From the NCBI GenBank assembly GCA_903849645.1, contig CAINJJ010000037.1, positions 62,001 to 126,000 on the forward strand: a stretch of DNA of 64,000 nucleotides, read 5' to 3'. Below are positions 4,119-43,111 of this stretch, one piece after another (positions within the stretch are counted from its first letter, which is position 1; every line of letters begins with the position of its first letter). The notes beneath the pieces are model-generated. The model was not told the DNA's origin. It made no database searches and saw nothing but the letters and a program-made list of their open reading frames with translations. Both the position numbers and the translations under genes were made by a program. This DNA is from an uncultured Acidobacteriaceae bacterium. GTDB taxonomy: Bacteria; Acidobacteriota; Terriglobia; Terriglobales; Acidobacteriaceae.

Positions 4119-4433
4119 TCAGGCTCGCTCCACCGGCGGGAGCTTCGGTTCGGTCGCGTTTTGCTGCTCGGAAAGACCGCTCGCAGGCGCTGCCTCCGAA
4201 CTCGCTTCGGCAGCGGCACGGCGCTTTTTCAAAATCTCCTCGTCGGGCGCAAACCAGTCGTCGTCGTGCCCCCGCCAGGCAACCTTGCCGAAAAGCTCGC
4301 GCAGGCGGGTCTGCCGGTGAAGCTGTACCGCCAGCCTCAGAGACGCCTCAACCGCCGCCTTTTTGGTAGTGGCATTGGTCGCCGCCATGGCCTTGGCCAT
4401 CAACTCGTCGTCGATTTCAATATTGGTCCGCAT
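4119..4433 (-). CDS. vapB: VapB-type antitoxin
   Basis: A 104-residue antitoxin pairing with the downstream PIN toxin. It begins MRTNIEIDDELMAKAM, a typical ribbon-helix-helix-like VapB opening, followed by TKKAAVEASLRLAVQL. The Asp/Trp/Phe-rich segment GHDDDWFAPDEE and the Glu/Ala-rich tail probably wrap the toxin. The ATG at 4433, with GGGAGG upstream, was chosen; the track start at 4535 lacks family sequence. The tail is longer than in many VapB proteins. By analogy the pair should repress its own promoter. Confidence 0.82.
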   Translation of the reverse strand: MRTNIEIDDELMAKAMAATNATTKKAAVEASLRLAVQLHRQTRLRELFGKVAWRGHDDDWFAPDEEILKKRRAAAEASSEAAPASGLSEQQNATEPKLPPVERA

Positions 4434-4573
4434 AGCCCGCGCCTCCCGATGTGTAAGGATAGCACGATTTATGTGTACGAGCAGCAGCCTGCCAAGACTC
4501 AGAGAACCCACGCCCGAGTCCTGGGTCCCATCCATTCCACCCCTGAGAAGGGCCTCCGCCGCACCGGAGGCGC

Positions 4574-6895
4574 CTACTTCAACCTTGCCCCCAGCGGGAC
4601 ATCCTCCAGGAACCCGGTCAGCACCGGCGCTCCGCCCTCGAGCGACGCCGCCAGCAGCATCCCGTTCGACTCCAGCCCCCGCATCATCCGCGGAGCCAGG
4701 TTGGCCACAATCACTATCTTCCGCCCCACCAGCTTCTCCGGCTCGTAGTACTGCGCAATCCCCGCCAGAATCTGCCGCTTCTCGTAGCCCAGGTCCACCT
4801 CCAGCCGCAACAGCTTGTCGGCCTTTGGCACCCGCTCCGCCACCAGAATCTGCGCCACCCGCAGCTCCACCTTGGCAAAGTCGTCAATGGTGATGTGCTG
4901 CACCGCCGGAGCGGCCGGCTCCACTGCCGCTGCCGCCGGGGCTGCCGCTGCCGCCAGGGGCGCAACCACACTGTCCGCATGCCCATGTGTCGGCGGCTTT
5001 ACGGAATGAGGCTGTGGCGCTACCACTCCCGCAACCGCTGGAGCCGTAACACCCGCCAGCCCGCCCCCATGCGTCGGAGGCTTCACCGAAATCACGTTGG
5101 TTGACGCTCCGCTTCCCGACGTCGGCGGCTTCACCGAGTGGAGATCCGCCACCACCCCCGCCACCGCAGGAGCCGTCACGCCCGCCTGACCCCCATGCGT
5201 GGGCGGTTTCACCGAGTTCGGTACCGGCGCTGGATTGGACTGGGCTGCCCTCTCCGCCTGGGCAGCCGCTTCCACGGCGCTGCGATTGTTCTCGTCTTCA
5301 AGATTCTGCATACGGTCGATTGCGTCCTTTTCAGCGCGGGGAAACAGAGGCGCGGGCTCTCCAAACTGCGTCCCCGCCTGCAGCCCGCCCCACGCGAGCT
5401 CTGTCAAAAATGATTTGCCTGCCGATACACCGATCTCGCCCTGCCCAAGCTGCCGCCACACCTTGGCCGCCGAGTCGGGAAGAATGGGATAGACCAGCGC
5501 CGTGATAATCCTGATCGATTCCGCCGCCGTCGCCAGCACCCTGGCCTGATGCGCCACATGCTCGGCCTCTGGCCGGTCCACCGGCCGCTTCCACGGGGCG
5601 TTCGCCGTCAGGTAGCCGTCGGTCTCCGCCACCAGCACCCAGAGCGCCTTCAGCGCGTCGGAGAAGTTCATCTCGTCAAACGCCGCCCCAAAGGCCCCAA
5701 TGGCCGCCACCGCGCTCTCCCGCAGCGCCGCCTCGGCCGCCGTCTCCGCGCCCGCCGCCGGCAGCACCCCGCCAAAGTACTTGTGCACCATGTTGACCAC
5801 GCGGCTCACCAGGTTCCCATAGCCGTTGGCCAGGTCCCCGTTGTACCGCTGCACCAGCGCCTCAAAGCTGAAGCTCCCGTCCTGCCCAAAGGGAATCTCC
5901 CGCAGCAGGAAGTACCGCAAAGCGTCCGCTCCCAGCACCGCGTGCACGGTCTCCGCGCGCACAATGTTGCCCCGCGACTTCGACATCTTGCCCTGGTCAA
6001 ACAGCAGCCACCCATTGGCCCGCACCGACCGCTGCACCGGAATGCCCGCCGCCATCAGAAACGCCGGCCAATAGACACAGTGGAACCGGCTGATCTCCTT
6101 GCCGATCAGGTGCATGTCCGCCGGCCAGAACTTCTTGAACCGCTCCTGGTCCTCCGGCGCGTCTGACCCATACCCCAACGCCGTAATGTAGTTGGCCAGC
6201 GCGTCCAGCCACACATACACCACGTGCTTCTCGTCGCCCGGCACAGGAATCCCCCACGAAAAGCTAGTCCGGCTCACCGAAAGGTCCTTCAGCCCTCCGC
6301 GCACAAACGAGATCACCTCGCGCCGCGTGGACTCCGGCCCCATGAACCCAGGGTTCTCCTCATAAAACTCCAGCAGCCGCCGCTCAAAGGCCGAGAGCTT
6401 GAAGAAGTAGTTCTCCTCGCTCACCGTCTCGGTAATCCGTCCGCAGTCCGGGCACGGAGTCCCCGGAGGCCCGTCCACATACAACTCGTCTGAGACGCAG
6501 TACTGCCCCGTGTAGTAGCCCTTGTAGATGTAGCCGCGGTCTCGCAGCGTGGCAAACAAGTGCTGCACTCCCCGCTTGTGCCGCTCCTCGGTCGTGCGGA
6601 TAAAGTCGTCGTAGCTCAGCCCCAGTTGGTCCCACAGCCCGCGAAACTCGCCCGCAATGGCCGTCGCAAACTCCTGCGGCGTCCGCCCCGCCTTCGCCGC
6701 CGAACGCTCGATCTTCTGCCCGTGCTCGTCCGTGCCCGTCAAAAACCATGTGTCGATCCCCTGCGCCCGCTTCCGCCGAGCAATCGCATCGCACACAATG
6801 GTCGAGTAGGCGTGCCCCAGGTGCGGCCGCGCGTTCACGTAATAGATCGGCGTGGTCAGGTAATAACGGGCTGGACTGGATGCTGGATTGGTCAT
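4574..6895 (-). CDS. metG: Methionyl-tRNA synthetase with C-terminal tRNA-binding domain
   Basis: A class I synthetase that charges tRNA(Met). The HIGH-type motif is RPHLGH near residue 25, a zinc-knuckle CPDCG lies near 148, and GKMSKSRGN near 302. The C-terminal 105 residues, from ITIDDFAKVELRVAQI, form an OB-fold Trbp111-like tRNA-binding domain that dimerises and aids tRNA capture. The 773-residue length exceeds the usual because the linker between catalytic and C-terminal parts (about 560-665) holds four copies of an SVKPPT(H/S)G-type repeat and an Ala-rich run. The ATG at 6895 was chosen since protein similarity starts there; the track start at 6985 is too early. Confidence 0.95.
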   Translation of the reverse strand: MTNPASSPARYYLTTPIYYVNARPHLGHAYSTIVCDAIARRKRAQGIDTWFLTGTDEHGQKIERSAAKAGRTPQEFATAIAGEFRGLWDQLGLSYDDFIRTTEERHKRGVQHLFATLRDRGYIYKGYYTGQYCVSDELYVDGPPGTPCPDCGRITETVSEENYFFKLSAFERRLLEFYEENPGFMGPESTRREVISFVRGGLKDLSVSRTSFSWGIPVPGDEKHVVYVWLDALANYITALGYGSDAPEDQERFKKFWPADMHLIGKEISRFHCVYWPAFLMAAGIPVQRSVRANGWLLFDQGKMSKSRGNIVRAETVHAVLGADALRYFLLREIPFGQDGSFSFEALVQRYNGDLANGYGNLVSRVVNMVHKYFGGVLPAAGAETAAEAALRESAVAAIGAFGAAFDEMNFSDALKALWVLVAETDGYLTANAPWKRPVDRPEAEHVAHQARVLATAAESIRIITALVYPILPDSAAKVWRQLGQGEIGVSAGKSFLTELAWGGLQAGTQFGEPAPLFPRAEKDAIDRMQNLEDENNRSAVEAAAQAERAAQSNPAPVPNSVKPPTHGGQAGVTAPAVAGVVADLHSVKPPTSGSGASTNVISVKPPTHGGGLAGVTAPAVAGVVAPQPHSVKPPTHGHADSVVAPLAAAAAPAAAAVEPAAPAVQHITIDDFAKVELRVAQILVAERVPKADKLLRLEVDLGYEKRQILAGIAQYYEPEKLVGRKIVIVANLAPRMMRGLESNGMLLAASLEGGAPVLTGFLEDVPLGARLK
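4982..5217 (-). repeat. In-frame repeats in the metG linker
   Basis: Four copies of a 23-27 base repeat lie at about 4982-5008, 5065-5091, 5119-5141 and 5191-5217. Each encodes SVKPPTHG or SVKPPTSG on the minus strand. A second unit encoding AGVTAPAVAGVVA occurs twice (about 5019-5058 and 5148-5187), so a unit of about 126 bases appears to have been tandemly duplicated. All copies keep the reading frame open. Confidence 0.8.
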
Positions 6896-7241
6896 AGGCG
6901 GGACATTGCATTGAATTCGCCCTACTCTTGGCAGGCCATAATCCAAAGGCAATCTAACTTCCATCTTACGGCATCTTCCGCCCAACGAATCCGGGGGGGC
7001 TCAGGTCCCTTTCTTTTGTGGACCTGGGAAACCACGAACCTGAATCGGCTCTCCGCGATCCGCAATCCCGCTCCAAGCCCCATCCATTTCGCGTTCCTGG
7101 CGCAATGGGTGGGAAGCCACGAACCCTGCACAACCTCATCCCAAGGCGGCGAAGCCGCCTCTGCCCCACCGCAGGTGGCCGCGGCTGGCTGCACCGCAGG
7201 CGCCAGGCGGCTGGTAGAATTAGCCTTGAAAATCAAGGATT
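6896..7241. other. metG-argS divergent intergenic region
   Basis: No gene is supported here; the short ORFs in the track have no protein character. The region must hold the promoters of the divergent metG and argS genes, but no clear -35/-10 pair was identified. It contains one full dispersed hairpin repeat (7001-7040) and a related tail, GGGAAGCCACGAACC, at about 7113-7127. A short hairpin, CCTTGAAAATCAAGG, covers the argS ribosome-binding area. Confidence 0.6.
7001..7040. repeat. Dispersed GGTCCC-type hairpin repeat
   Basis: CAGGTCC (7002-7008) pairs with GGACCTG (7020-7026), followed by GGAAACCACGAACC. Relatives occur at 35216-35257 and 51644-51688, and a more divergent one at 9421-9455; all are intergenic. 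No coding role is apparent. Confidence 0.6.
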
Positions 7242-39587: not shown

Positions 39588-40547
39588 ATGAAGTTTTTCG
39601 GCGGCAAGAAAGAAACACCAGACGAAACTCCGAAGCCCGGCTTCTTCGACCGCATGAAGCAGGCCGTCTCGCGTACCCGCGAGTCGCTCTCTTCCAAGAT
39701 CGAAGGCATCGTCGCGCTTACGCGCACCGTGGACGAATCCACGCTGGATGAGCTTGAAACCGTTCTGCTGAGCAGCGACCTGGGCGTCGAAACCACCACC
39801 GCCATTCTGGAAGCGCTGCGGGAGCGCGCCCGCCGTCAGGACATCGCCGGCGGCGAGGAGTTGCGTGACCTGCTCAAGGCCCAGATTCGCGCCATTCTTG
39901 AGGCTCCGCAGCGGCCGGTAGCCTCTCCCGAGACGCCCCCTGCCGTCACCTTCCTCGTGGGCGTCAACGGCACTGGCAAGACAACCTCGGCCGGGAAGCT
40001 GGCCGCCTGGTATCGCGCCAAAGACCAGACCGTGCTGCTCTGCGCCGCCGACACCTTCCGTGCCGCGGCCATCGAGCAGCTTGAGGTGTGGGCCTCGCGT
40101 TCGGGGGTCGAGATGATCCGCACCCGCCAGGGCGGAGACCCCGCCGCCGTTCTTTACGACTCCGCCGCCGCCGCCAGGGCGCGCGGCATCCAGCACCTCA
40201 TTGTGGACACCGCCGGCCGCCTGCATACCAAGACCGGCCTCATGGACGAGCTGGACAAGATGCGCCGCACCGCCGCCAAGCTCATTCCCGGCGCGCCCCA
40301 CGAGGTGCTGCTGGTCATGGACGCAACCACCGGCCAGAACGGCCTGCAGCAGGCACGGCTATTCACCCAGGCAGCCGGAGTCACTGGCATCCTCCTCACC
40401 AAGCTCGACGGCACGGCCAAGGGCGGCATCGCCGTGGCCATTGCCCGCGAACTCAACCTGCCCGTCCGCTTTGCCGGCGTGGGCGAACAGATGACCGACC
40501 TCTTAGAGTTCTCCCCCGAAGCCTTCGTCGATTCGCTGCTGGGATAA
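39588..40547 (+). CDS. ftsY: Signal recognition particle receptor FtsY
   Basis: A 319-residue SRP receptor GTPase that docks ribosome-SRP complexes at the inner membrane. The NG domain is complete: helical N domain ([18 protein letters not shown]), G1 [15 protein letters not shown] near 124, [30 protein letters not shown] and the C-terminal [16 protein letters not shown]. The acidic A domain is very short, which is common outside the enterobacteria. The restriction island begins about 80 bases downstream. Confidence 0.96.
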
Positions 40548-40630
40548 GACGAACGAACCCAACAGAAACCGACCATCCGGCACCAAAGCCTCCTTGCAGA
40601 TTTGCACCGCTGTGATGTAAGGTGATGCAC

Positions 40631-40834
40631 ATGACGGGTGACTCCAATTCGGCAAGTATGCCCAAAACTGAACGTTCACCTCGTCTCTCCGTGACGATCC
40701 CCTTCGACACCTACGATTCTCTTGAAAGAATCGCAAAGAAGAAGAAGGTGTCCCTTGCCTGGGTCGTGCGCGATGCAACCGAGAGGTATGTTTCAGATGA
40801 GCTTCCCCTTTTCCGGGAGACTCGAAATGTCTGA
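40631..40834 (+). CDS. Ribbon-helix-helix (CopG-type) regulator of the RM island
   Basis: A 67-residue DNA-binding protein. [37 protein letters not shown] is a typical ribbon-helix-helix fold. The ATG at 40631, with AAGGTG upstream, is preferred; GTG/ATG codons at 40622/40625 are alternatives. Its last codons overlap the methyltransferase start by eight bases. By position it may control expression of the restriction-modification genes, in place of the more usual helix-turn-helix C protein; this is inference. Confidence 0.82.
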
Positions 40835-41984
40835 GGTCAGCGCCAACTCGCGCACCTTCTACGAATTCTTCGCTGGAAGCGGCATGGTCCGCGCCGGCCT
40901 AGGAACCTCTTGGAAGTGCCTCTTCGCCAATGACCTCGACGAGAAGAAAGCGGCAGCGTATCAGGAGAATTGGGGTGCCGGGGAGCTCCTAGTCGGCGAT
41001 GTCGGGAGGCTCACGTCTCGCGACCTGCCGGGCCAACCCAACTTAACCTGGGCATCCTTTCCATGCCAGGATCTCTCCTTGGCTGGGATGGGTGCGGGCC
41101 TGAAAGGCAGACGGTCTGGAACGTTCTGGCCGTTCTGGAACCTCGTACGAGAATTGCAAAGGGAGGAACGACAGCCGGATGTCGTCGTTTTAGAGAACGT
41201 CTGCGGAGCCTTGACCTCGCACAACGGCGGGGACTTCAGATCTCTGATTAATGCCCTCAGTTCGGAAGGTTATCGCATCGGGGCCTTGGTAATTGACGCC
41301 GCTCTTTTCGTTCCCCAGTCACGTCCGCGCCTTTTTATCGTCGGTGTAAGGGACGACATTGTGATCGACCCTAGCCTAGTTTCGGACCGACCGCAGGCTC
41401 CGTTCCATACCAGCGGAATCGTTGCCGCTTACAATCGGCTGCCAAGAGCCGACAGAGCCAAATGGATGTGGTGGAATGTACCCGCTCCCCCTCTTAGAGC
41501 TTCGACATTTTCAAGCATCATCGAGAGCAACATTCCGTGGCACACTAACAAGCAAACGGAGGCGCTATTGGCCCTGATGCTGCCCCGCCACCGTGCCAAG
41601 GTTGCGACTGCCAAAAGAGCAGGGCAGAGGGTGACAGGCACCATCTACAAGCGCACCCGTCCTGACGAAAACGGAAAGAGAGCCCAGCGAGCCGAGGTGC
41701 GCTTCGATGAAATAGCAGGGTGTCTAAGGACCCCCGGCGGCGGCTCCAGCCGACAGACGATTATCGTCGTGGACGGGAAAAAGGTTCGGTCAAGGCTACT
41801 TTCCCCAAGGGAAGCCGCACGGCTTATGGGCCTCCCAGAAGAGTACATCCTGCCAAAGAACTATAACGAAGCGTATCGACTCATGGGAGACGGGGTCGTC
41901 GTTCCCGTCGTGAGCCATTTATCCCGTTATCTTCTTGAGCCACTGGTTCAGATAAGCCAAGCTAGGACAGAGCGTGCGGCGTAA
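40827..41984 (+). CDS. dcm: C5-cytosine DNA methyltransferase
   Basis: A 385-residue modification enzyme. Conserved motifs in order: FEFFAGSGMVRAGL-type motif I (YEFFAGSGMVRAGLG), the catalytic Cys in SFPCQDLSLAG (about 79), VVVLENV (motif VI, about 122), VPQSRPRLFIVGV (motif VIII), a target-recognition region (about 200-310), and RLMGDGVVVPVVSHLSRYLL (motif X). The recognition site cannot be read by eye. GGGAGA precedes the ATG. The gene and its neighbours are less GC-rich than ftsY and ribD, consistent with horizontal acquisition. Confidence 0.95.
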   Translation: MSEVSANSRTFYEFFAGSGMVRAGLGTSWKCLFANDLDEKKAAAYQENWGAGELLVGDVGRLTSRDLPGQPNLTWASFPCQDLSLAGMGAGLKGRRSGTFWPFWNLVRELQREERQPDVVVLENVCGALTSHNGGDFRSLINALSSEGYRIGALVIDAALFVPQSRPRLFIVGVRDDIVIDPSLVSDRPQAPFHTSGIVAAYNRLPRADRAKWMWWNVPAPPLRASTFSSIIESNIPWHTNKQTEALLALMLPRHRAKVATAKRAGQRVTGTIYKRTRPDENGKRAQRAEVRFDEIAGCLRTPGGGSSRQTIIVVDGKKVRSRLLSPREAARLMGLPEEYILPKNYNEAYRLMGDGVVVPVVSHLSRYLLEPLVQISQARTERAA

Positions 41985-42019
41985 ACTCCTCTCAGACAAG
42001 AAGCAGACTGAGAGGTCGC

Positions 42020-42604
42020 TTGGCTACAGATTTCAGGTATCGGCAAAATGCAGTCAAGTCGCTGACAAATGAGATTGGCGTCTATGCCCTCTGCGATCTG
42101 GACGGCGTTCCCGTGTACGTCGGGCAGTCAAAAGATGGAATACGCAGCCGAGTTGCGCGTCACTTGACCTCGGCCCGCTCTGACATCATAGCGAATCGCC
42201 AAATCGACGTTTGGGAGATCGGTTGGGTCTGGGCCTACCCAGTGGCCACGAAAGAAGATCTCGATCCGCTTGAGGCCCTCCTTTACCACTCCTTCAACAC
42301 TAAGTCGCAGCTAATGAACGGCACCGTCCCGCCTGTGCCGACCTCCCTCTCAGAGCTTCCTCAACCGTCCCAGATAGTCCAAGTCATGACCGACATAGAG
42401 ATTCTCGCGAAGCGGGACCCTGTGCAACGCCTGCCTAGACAGGCAGCCCATTATGCTCAGATCGTTGGTCATTTCCTTGAAGTAAAGAAGTCGAAACAGA
42501 TTGCGAGAGCAATCGCAGCCCATTTTCAACGGCTCGCTCGATACCATCAGACGCTCCTCGGAATTGCAAACTCAGCCGCAGCAGACGATGACGAAGAAGA
42601 CTGA
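42020..42604 (+). CDS. GIY-YIG nuclease, probable restriction enzyme
   Basis: A 194-residue protein with a GIY-YIG nuclease domain: GVYALCDLDGVPVYVGQS gives the GIY and YIG strands. RSRVARH supplies the Arg/His pair, and PLEALLYHSFNTKSQLMNG the Glu and Asn expected of the active site. GIY-YIG restriction enzymes of the Eco29kI type have a similar R-x3-H arrangement. Position between a C5-methyltransferase and vsr makes it the likely cognate restriction endonuclease. The start is TTG at 42020 with AGAGG upstream. Its stop overlaps vsr by 17 bases. Confidence 0.8.
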   Translation: MATDFRYRQNAVKSLTNEIGVYALCDLDGVPVYVGQSKDGIRSRVARHLTSARSDIIANRQIDVWEIGWVWAYPVATKEDLDPLEALLYHSFNTKSQLMNGTVPPVPTSLSELPQPSQIVQVMTDIEILAKRDPVQRLPRQAAHYAQIVGHFLEVKKSKQIARAIAAHFQRLARYHQTLLGIANSAAADDDEED

Positions 42605-43019
42605 TCTTGACCGAAGTGCGATCATGCGCTCCGTGAAATCAGCGAACACCAAGCCAGAGATGGCGGTCCGGAGCTTGGTGCATCGCATGGGGTATAGATT
42701 CCGCCTCCACCGAAAGTCCCTGCCGGGAAAGCCCGACCTGGTACTCCCGCGATTGAAGAAGGTCGTATTTGTCCACGGTTGCTTCTGGCATGGGCACACC
42801 TGCGCAAGAGGAAATCGGGCGCCAAAGAGCAACCGTGAGTATTGGGTCGCCAAGATCGGCCGGAACCGGCAACGCGATCTACTGAATCAAGCCATGCTAT
42901 GCGCTCAAGCCTGGGGATTCTACATCGCTTGGGAATGCCAGATAAAGAACCCCGAGTTTGAAGGTGACCTTAGGGCTTTCTTGGGGTCGGGTGGCAGTGC
43001 CCGTGAACGGCCGGAATAA
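42588..43019 (+). CDS. vsr: Very-short-patch repair endonuclease Vsr
   Basis: A 143-residue endonuclease that nicks next to T:G mismatches left by deamination of 5-methylcytosine. Signatures: RSAIMRSVKSANTKPEM at the N-terminus, GKPDLVLPRLKKVVFVHGCFWHGHTC carrying the catalytic Asp and His residues and part of the zinc site, and WVAKIGRNRQRD. The ATG at 42588 marks the family start and lies inside the GIY-YIG gene. It probably protects the genome from mutation at sites methylated by the neighbouring enzyme. Confidence 0.94.
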   Translation: MTKKTDLDRSAIMRSVKSANTKPEMAVRSLVHRMGYRFRLHRKSLPGKPDLVLPRLKKVVFVHGCFWHGHTCARGNRAPKSNREYWVAKIGRNRQRDLLNQAMLCAQAWGFYIAWECQIKNPEFEGDLRAFLGSGGSARERPE

Positions 43020-43111
43020 ATACACTCAAGCTCGCCTGACACCAAGCGGTCAACTCAAGCATTGAGCAAGGACCTGCGGTAGTAAACTTGACCTTTCACC
43101 CATCCACCCGC

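Follow-up and report, generated by a model that had tools for sequence, protein, structure and literature searches.

The occurrence of four adjoining genes between ftsY and ribD, encoding a ribbon-helix-helix (RHH) protein, a C5-cytosine methyltransferase (MTase), a GIY-YIG nuclease and Vsr, raises the question of whether they form a single restriction-modification system and, if so, which of their products cuts DNA, at what site and under whose control. The answer that we regard as probable is a compact mobile Type II restriction-modification module, in which the MTase and the GIY-YIG protein act at GGCGCC, Vsr repairs and the RHH protein controls.

A four-gene island between ftsY and ribD

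The four genes occupy positions 40631-43019 of the window (the whole 64,000-nucleotide stretch under analysis), all on the + strand. A check of the open reading frames found them in the two overlapping pairs that the initial annotation had described: the MTase start overlaps the RHH end by 8 bases (ATGTCTGA) and the Vsr start overlaps the GIY-YIG end by 17 bases. The features are the following.

40548..43111, no strand: inserted segment (ftsY and ribD near-abutting in same-genus relatives; GC drop)
40603..40629, + strand: predicted RHH operator, TGCACC-N4-TGRTGTAA-N-GTGRTGCA, 27 bp, directly upstream of the RHH start
40631..40834, + strand: ribbon-helix-helix (CopG-type) regulator (Pfam RHH_1, E 3.9e-5, above cut-off)
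40827..41984, + strand: C5-cytosine DNA methyltransferase (DNA_methylase PF00145, E 1.4e-47)
42020..42604, + strand: GIY-YIG nuclease, predicted restriction endonuclease (conserved catalytic residues, AlphaFold model, MTase pairing)
42588..43019, + strand: Vsr very-short-patch T:G mismatch endonuclease (PF03852, E 4.3e-29; TIGR00632, E 3e-40)

The preferred RHH start is the ATG at 40631, since the GTG at 40622 falls within the predicted operator. Ribosome-binding-like sequences precede the MTase and GIY-YIG starts, the latter being a TTG that coincides with the start in its homologs.

The end of ftsY is at 40547 and the ATG of ribD at about 43112. Since these two genes nearly abut in same-genus relatives, ribD following ftsY by about 20 bp at most (L092, L094, L096, L097, L098, L180, L184), the island can be regarded as an insertion of about 2.5 kb. 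Its GC content is 0.55-0.59, against about 0.60-0.73 outside, so that the earlier description of a lower-GC island between ftsY and ribD holds both for the GC drop and for the neighbours; the broader proposal, that the genes were acquired as one restriction-modification island and have an RHH regulator, is likewise well supported. The GIY-YIG family of the window is rare in the phylum (4 of 396 genomes, the window genome counted), and within the genus sample the island was found in one genome, while another has only a 28%-identical GIY-YIG and Vsr pair. A decayed relative of the island lies at positions 4307-6928 of an Acidobacteriaceae MAG locus (L035), where the RHH gene, 54 residues of the MTase, the GIY-YIG protein from residue 43 and Vsr persist, the MTase middle and the GIY-YIG start having been replaced by a DUF3883-like ORF (judged by eye) and a small ORF. 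As this remnant has the same gene order, the order seen in the window is older than the window genome. No Rfam match for an RNA element was found, nor any tRNA within the window that could have been the integration site.

It is worth noting what other relatives carry at the ftsY-ribD junction: a Septu PtuA-PtuB pair adjoining ftsY (L185), a HigB-like toxin/HTH pair (L177) and a 251-aa gene whose function is unassigned (L169). In this genus the junction looks like a small hotspot, with defence and toxin-antitoxin genes as its cargo.

The methyltransferase and its predicted target

The MTase scores above the cut-offs of PF00145 and TIGR00675 and has intact motifs and a conserved target-recognition domain (TRD), as expected for the MTase of a Type II system. 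Its predicted target is GGCGCC. The window MTase is 60% identical to gp35 of phage AH2, for which an identity of 63-66% to M.KasI and to two further MTases is reported (PMC3483164), and AH2 gp35 is the single intermediate through which we place the window MTase in the M.KasI family; AH2 gp34 is reported to be 64% identical to KasI (PMC3483164), and KasI is listed with the site GGCGCC (PMC3724700). The TRD core, YKRTR..QRAEVRFDDIAGCLRTP.GGSSRQ, is near-invariant and common to MTases that have KasI-family, DUF4928 or GIY-YIG partners, and the window TRD is 49-61% identical to the TRDs of its close family. The MTase also matches the PADLOC model DruM2 (PDLC00028) at 1.8e-158, yet DruE or any other Druantia partner is absent, its neighbours being GIY-YIG, Vsr, RHH, ftsY and ribD, and a Druantia assignment was rejected; the DruM2 model picks up the MTase family as a whole, and its label would mislead automatic defence annotation of the family.

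Counts of the site in genomes bear on the same prediction. In the genus of G630, the observed/expected ratio of GGCGCC is 0.15 in the 7 genomes that carry the MTase (the GIY-YIG protein being verified in 4 of them) versus 0.55 in the 5 that do not, and other GC palindromes are not lowered in the carriers. GGTGCC, the deamination product of GGmCGCC, is higher in the same carriers (1.57 versus 1.23), and because of this rise mutation, selection or the two together may underlie the depletion; whichever its cause, it points to GGCGCC as the target. The A. vitis-like genome G474 has 4 GGCGCC in 100 kb versus 58 expected, with other GC palindromes depleted too, and in the window genome no avoidance of GGCGCC was seen (0.73 versus 0.70 in same-genus genomes without the system).

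The GIY-YIG protein and the partners of the methyltransferase family

With 22.5 bits, the GIY-YIG protein falls 0.1 below the Pfam cut-off of 22.6, which its close homologs pass (8e-8, 8e-9). The motifs GVY20-22 and YVG33-35 are present and followed by R44, H48, E85 and N100; across 45 aligned homologs there is no variation at Y33, G35, R44, H48, E85 or N100, while Y22 is conserved in at least 90%. This set corresponds to the catalytic residues Y49, Y76, R104, H108, E142 and N154 of Eco29kI (PMC1952068), and the spacing from E to N is that of I-TevI (E75, N90). Motifs and catalytic residues assign the predicted protein to the GIY-YIG superfamily; detectable homology does not assign it to the Eco29kI-type REase family, a profile search of PDB chains having found no similarity to Eco29kI or Hpy188I and Foldseek having returned UvrC, with Eco29kI absent among the PDB hits listed. 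In the AlphaFold model (mean pLDDT 90), the top PDB match is the UvrC GIY-YIG domain, and residues from about 118 to 191, the C-terminal half, are predicted to be helical and have no PDB match. Taken from its sequence, the family looks like one previously unrecognised as a cutter, with a novel C-terminal half.

An MTase homolog or remnant adjoins the GIY-YIG gene in 46 of 48 species-genome loci (homologs 50-78% identical), the remaining 2 stopping at contig edges. The arrangement is found in every order and orientation, tandem either way or convergent, and the pairing of the GIY-YIG family with this MTase family is obligate. The initial annotation had called a GIY-YIG cutter uncommon, which is right for the literature, where few GIY-YIG REases have been characterised, but not for the pairing itself, which turns up repeatedly, in Alpha-, Beta- and Gammaproteobacteria and Acidobacteria as well as on plasmids and in phages.

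About 40 loci hold an intact MTase and GIY-YIG without a KasI-like gene, and about 14 hold both together with a 285-aa KasI-like gene, these counts including a few duplicates of one genome or virus. No third gene recurs near the GIY-YIG-only loci beyond local host or incidental genes. The GIY-YIG protein, already proposed as the cutter, is therefore the likeliest one, as the roughly 40 loci offer no other candidate, but the proposal is weakened by the roughly 14 loci in which it sits beside a KasI-family enzyme, because of which an accessory role keeps some standing. The 285-aa gene matches PADLOC REase_II PDLC03501, belongs to the family of phage AH2 gp34 and is also found as partner of the MTase family without GIY-YIG; DUF4928, which pairs with the MTase family elsewhere, matches REase_II PDLC03543. 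When loci were anchored on the MTase (20 loci), the partner was GIY-YIG in 7 (4 close, 3 divergent), DUF4928 in 3 and KasI-like in 2; two nucleases together were seen in 0 of 20, and the 8 loci without a nuclease partner imply that an MTase of the family can be maintained on its own. Co-occurrence with the KasI-like gene is scattered over the GIY-YIG tree (7 changes), so this gene must have been gained or lost repeatedly. In two MAG loci (L156, L027) the GIY-YIG gene is intact and the MTase next to it is broken, a combination that should be toxic if the GIY-YIG protein cuts, assembly error being possible. We also considered whether pseudogenes are asymmetric, the nuclease being lost first, and found the counts uninformative (GIY-YIG broken and MTase intact in 3 loci, the reverse in 2).

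In the temperate Burkholderia phage AH2 (L064, 1995-4962), the MTase, a KasI-like REase, a GIY-YIG protein annotated as excinuclease and Vsr make up one operon, and close GIY-YIG relatives occur on more viral contigs. The mobilizable P. aeruginosa plasmid pNECK1 (L060) has MTase, DUF4928 and Vsr close to a blaIMP-63 resistance cassette.

The RHH protein and its predicted operator

The RHH protein is likely the autoregulator of the operon, with predicted binding to the 27-bp element, which likely overlaps the RHH promoter. The same pattern has 4 occurrences, the window included, the others being in the Acidobacteriaceae MAG (L035), a Xanthomonas plasmid (L062) and a phage (L165), each time upstream of an RHH-MTase operon. 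The RHH protein of L035, in the same position, is 68% identical to that of the window, and the one of L062 48%. Upstream similarity between the window and L035 starts exactly at the 27-bp element, which is the sole conserved upstream element for this RHH subclass and is single-copy in the window genome even when 3 mismatches are allowed. A protein scan of viral contigs found no RHH homologs; a scan for the exact operator in 2.9 million viral contigs instead gave one match, which lies at the promoter of a further operon of the composition RHH-MTase-KasI-like-Vsr. In about 15 of 92 loci, with all partner types, the MTase start is overlapped or adjoined by an RHH gene, so that an RHH protein in place of a helix-turn-helix controller, which had been considered uncommon, in fact recurs within this MTase family.

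In a second RHH subclass, GGCGCC-N5-GGCGCC stands directly upstream of or over the RHH start at 10 loci of 6 lineages (L002-L006, L039, L054, L060, L065, L107). A spacing of 5 between GGCGCC pairs was seen 14 times in 1.36 Mb versus about 1.6 for nearby spacings, and none of the other palindromes tested for a 5-bp paired spacing shows it. The window operator has GGTGCA-type boxes, not GGCGCC. Besides their operators, the two subclasses appear by eye to differ in the residues of the DNA-contacting strand (S-x-T/S versus N-x-R). One may speculate, as a possibility that we entertain only tentatively, that a single MTase lineage acts as the socket into which three unrelated same-site cutters (KasI-like, DUF4928, GIY-YIG) fit, and that an RHH protein reads the system's own target: the sister operator would be two GGCGCC 11 bp apart, at which methylation could set the switch, and the operator of the window subclass would have drifted to GGTGCA-type boxes with different RHH strand residues.

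Proposed mechanism and alternatives

In the restriction-modification module that we favour, the MTase would make m5C within GGCGCC, and the GIY-YIG protein would cut unmethylated GGCGCC, most likely as an Eco29kI-like dimer. Vsr, whose profile score of 137 bits stands against a curated cut-off of 97.9, would by its family be the m5C repair partner, nicking T:G mismatches that arise from deamination of methylated C. The RHH protein, encoded first in the operon, would bind at its own promoter, through the 27-bp operator, and thereby limit transcription, while overlapping stop and start codons would couple translation of the MTase to RHH and of Vsr to GIY-YIG; it is plausible that the overlaps give tight control of the order and amount of the products. 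That the MTase and the GIY-YIG protein are cognate at one site is predicted from the obligate pairing, the catalytic residues and the GGCGCC depletion. Speaking against the module are the lack of GGCGCC avoidance in the window genome, the family MTases that occur unpaired, and the failure to find sequence similarity of the GIY-YIG protein to Eco29kI or Hpy188I. A simple model with one cutter does not account for operons with both KasI-like and GIY-YIG genes; these may have a pair of cutters for one site, or a GIY-YIG protein in an accessory role.

If the GIY-YIG protein served the MTase in an accessory role or in repair, as a UvrC-like or Vsr-like nuclease, the island would be a solitary dcm-vsr-like methylation and repair cassette, or a system that lost its real REase. 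Several observations suit this idea: the place of GIY-YIG between a preceding KasI-like REase and a following Vsr in many operons of phages and plasmids (L034, L039, L064, L103-L107), the seeming redundancy of a second cutter in the roughly 14 KasI-like loci, unpaired family MTases with Vsr (L144, L146), the UvrC nuclease domain as nearest fold, and the GIY-YIG gene retained next to a broken MTase in L156; deamination could, besides, account for the GGCGCC depletion. We nevertheless hold it to be rather unlikely, as deep GIY-YIG-only clades retain every catalytic residue, mismatch nicking is already provided by Vsr and 28 intact loci have GIY-YIG but no Vsr, KasI-like and DUF4928 partners are found where GIY-YIG is absent and so do not need it, and the three nucleases are mutually exclusive in the MTase-anchored sample.

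It seems improbable that the module restricts at some different site from GGCGCC, or that the GIY-YIG site is related to or looser than that of the MTase, given the core TRD motif near-invariant across all partners, the selective depletion of GGCGCC in GIY-YIG genomes of one genus and the GGCGCC pairs in sister operons, even if the window TRD is only 49-61% identical to its close family, the operator boxes are GGTGCA-type and the window genome has no GGCGCC imprint. This last observation would also fit an island that, though its sequence is intact, is silent or arrived too recently to matter in its host, as would its presence in a single genome among those sampled from the genus, with the 28%-identical pair in another; all four frames, however, are intact, ribosome-binding-like sequences stand upstream of the MTase and GIY-YIG starts, and the operator is shared with the decayed relative, whose RHH protein is 68% identical, which makes such a state improbable in our view.

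Comparison with known systems

The KasI system (GGCGCC) and phage AH2 gp32-gp35 have the same C5-MTase family with its conserved TRD and a Vsr in the operon, and AH2 likewise carries a GIY-YIG protein, 59% identical and annotated as excinuclease; the window differs in having no KasI-like (PDLC03501) REase, GIY-YIG being its sole candidate cutter, and in the RHH gene that heads its operon. In E. coli, Dcm-Vsr couples a C5-MTase to Vsr through overlapping genes, as in the window, but lacks a nuclease partner and a regulator and has a different target. Eco29kI and Cfr42I (CCGCGG) share the Y/Y/R/H/E/N residue set of GIY-YIG and have a cytosine MTase partner, but PDB searches detected no sequence similarity to them, the predicted target differs, and the window has a helical C-terminal half without PDB match as well as Vsr and RHH genes. 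Hpy188I (TCNGA) likewise uses a GIY-YIG nuclease for restriction, with an active site called unusual in the title of PMC2630997, whereas the window family has the I-TevI-type residue set, and no similarity was found.

As in the window, C-protein Type II systems have a small regulator gene in first position and an operator over its own promoter, their regulator being a helix-turn-helix protein and that of the window an RHH protein. Among known restriction-modification controllers, helix-turn-helix C proteins dominate. The review PMC3874152 mentions RHH proteins only as toxin-antitoxin repressors (Omega, PaaR) and describes no RHH controller of restriction-modification. If the module that we favour is real, RHH proteins with a defined operator would join these controllers, a widespread family annotated as 'GIY-YIG nuclease' or 'excinuclease' would consist of GGCGCC restriction enzymes, and different folds could substitute for each other as cutter for one methyltransferase.

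Other sites are scarce in the sample of the window genome (L070-L089 and the window): CAGCTG was counted 26 times versus 135 expected, CCCGGG 47 versus 162, and CTAG has an observed/expected ratio of 0.31, a scarcity that could reflect other restriction systems or a general bias.
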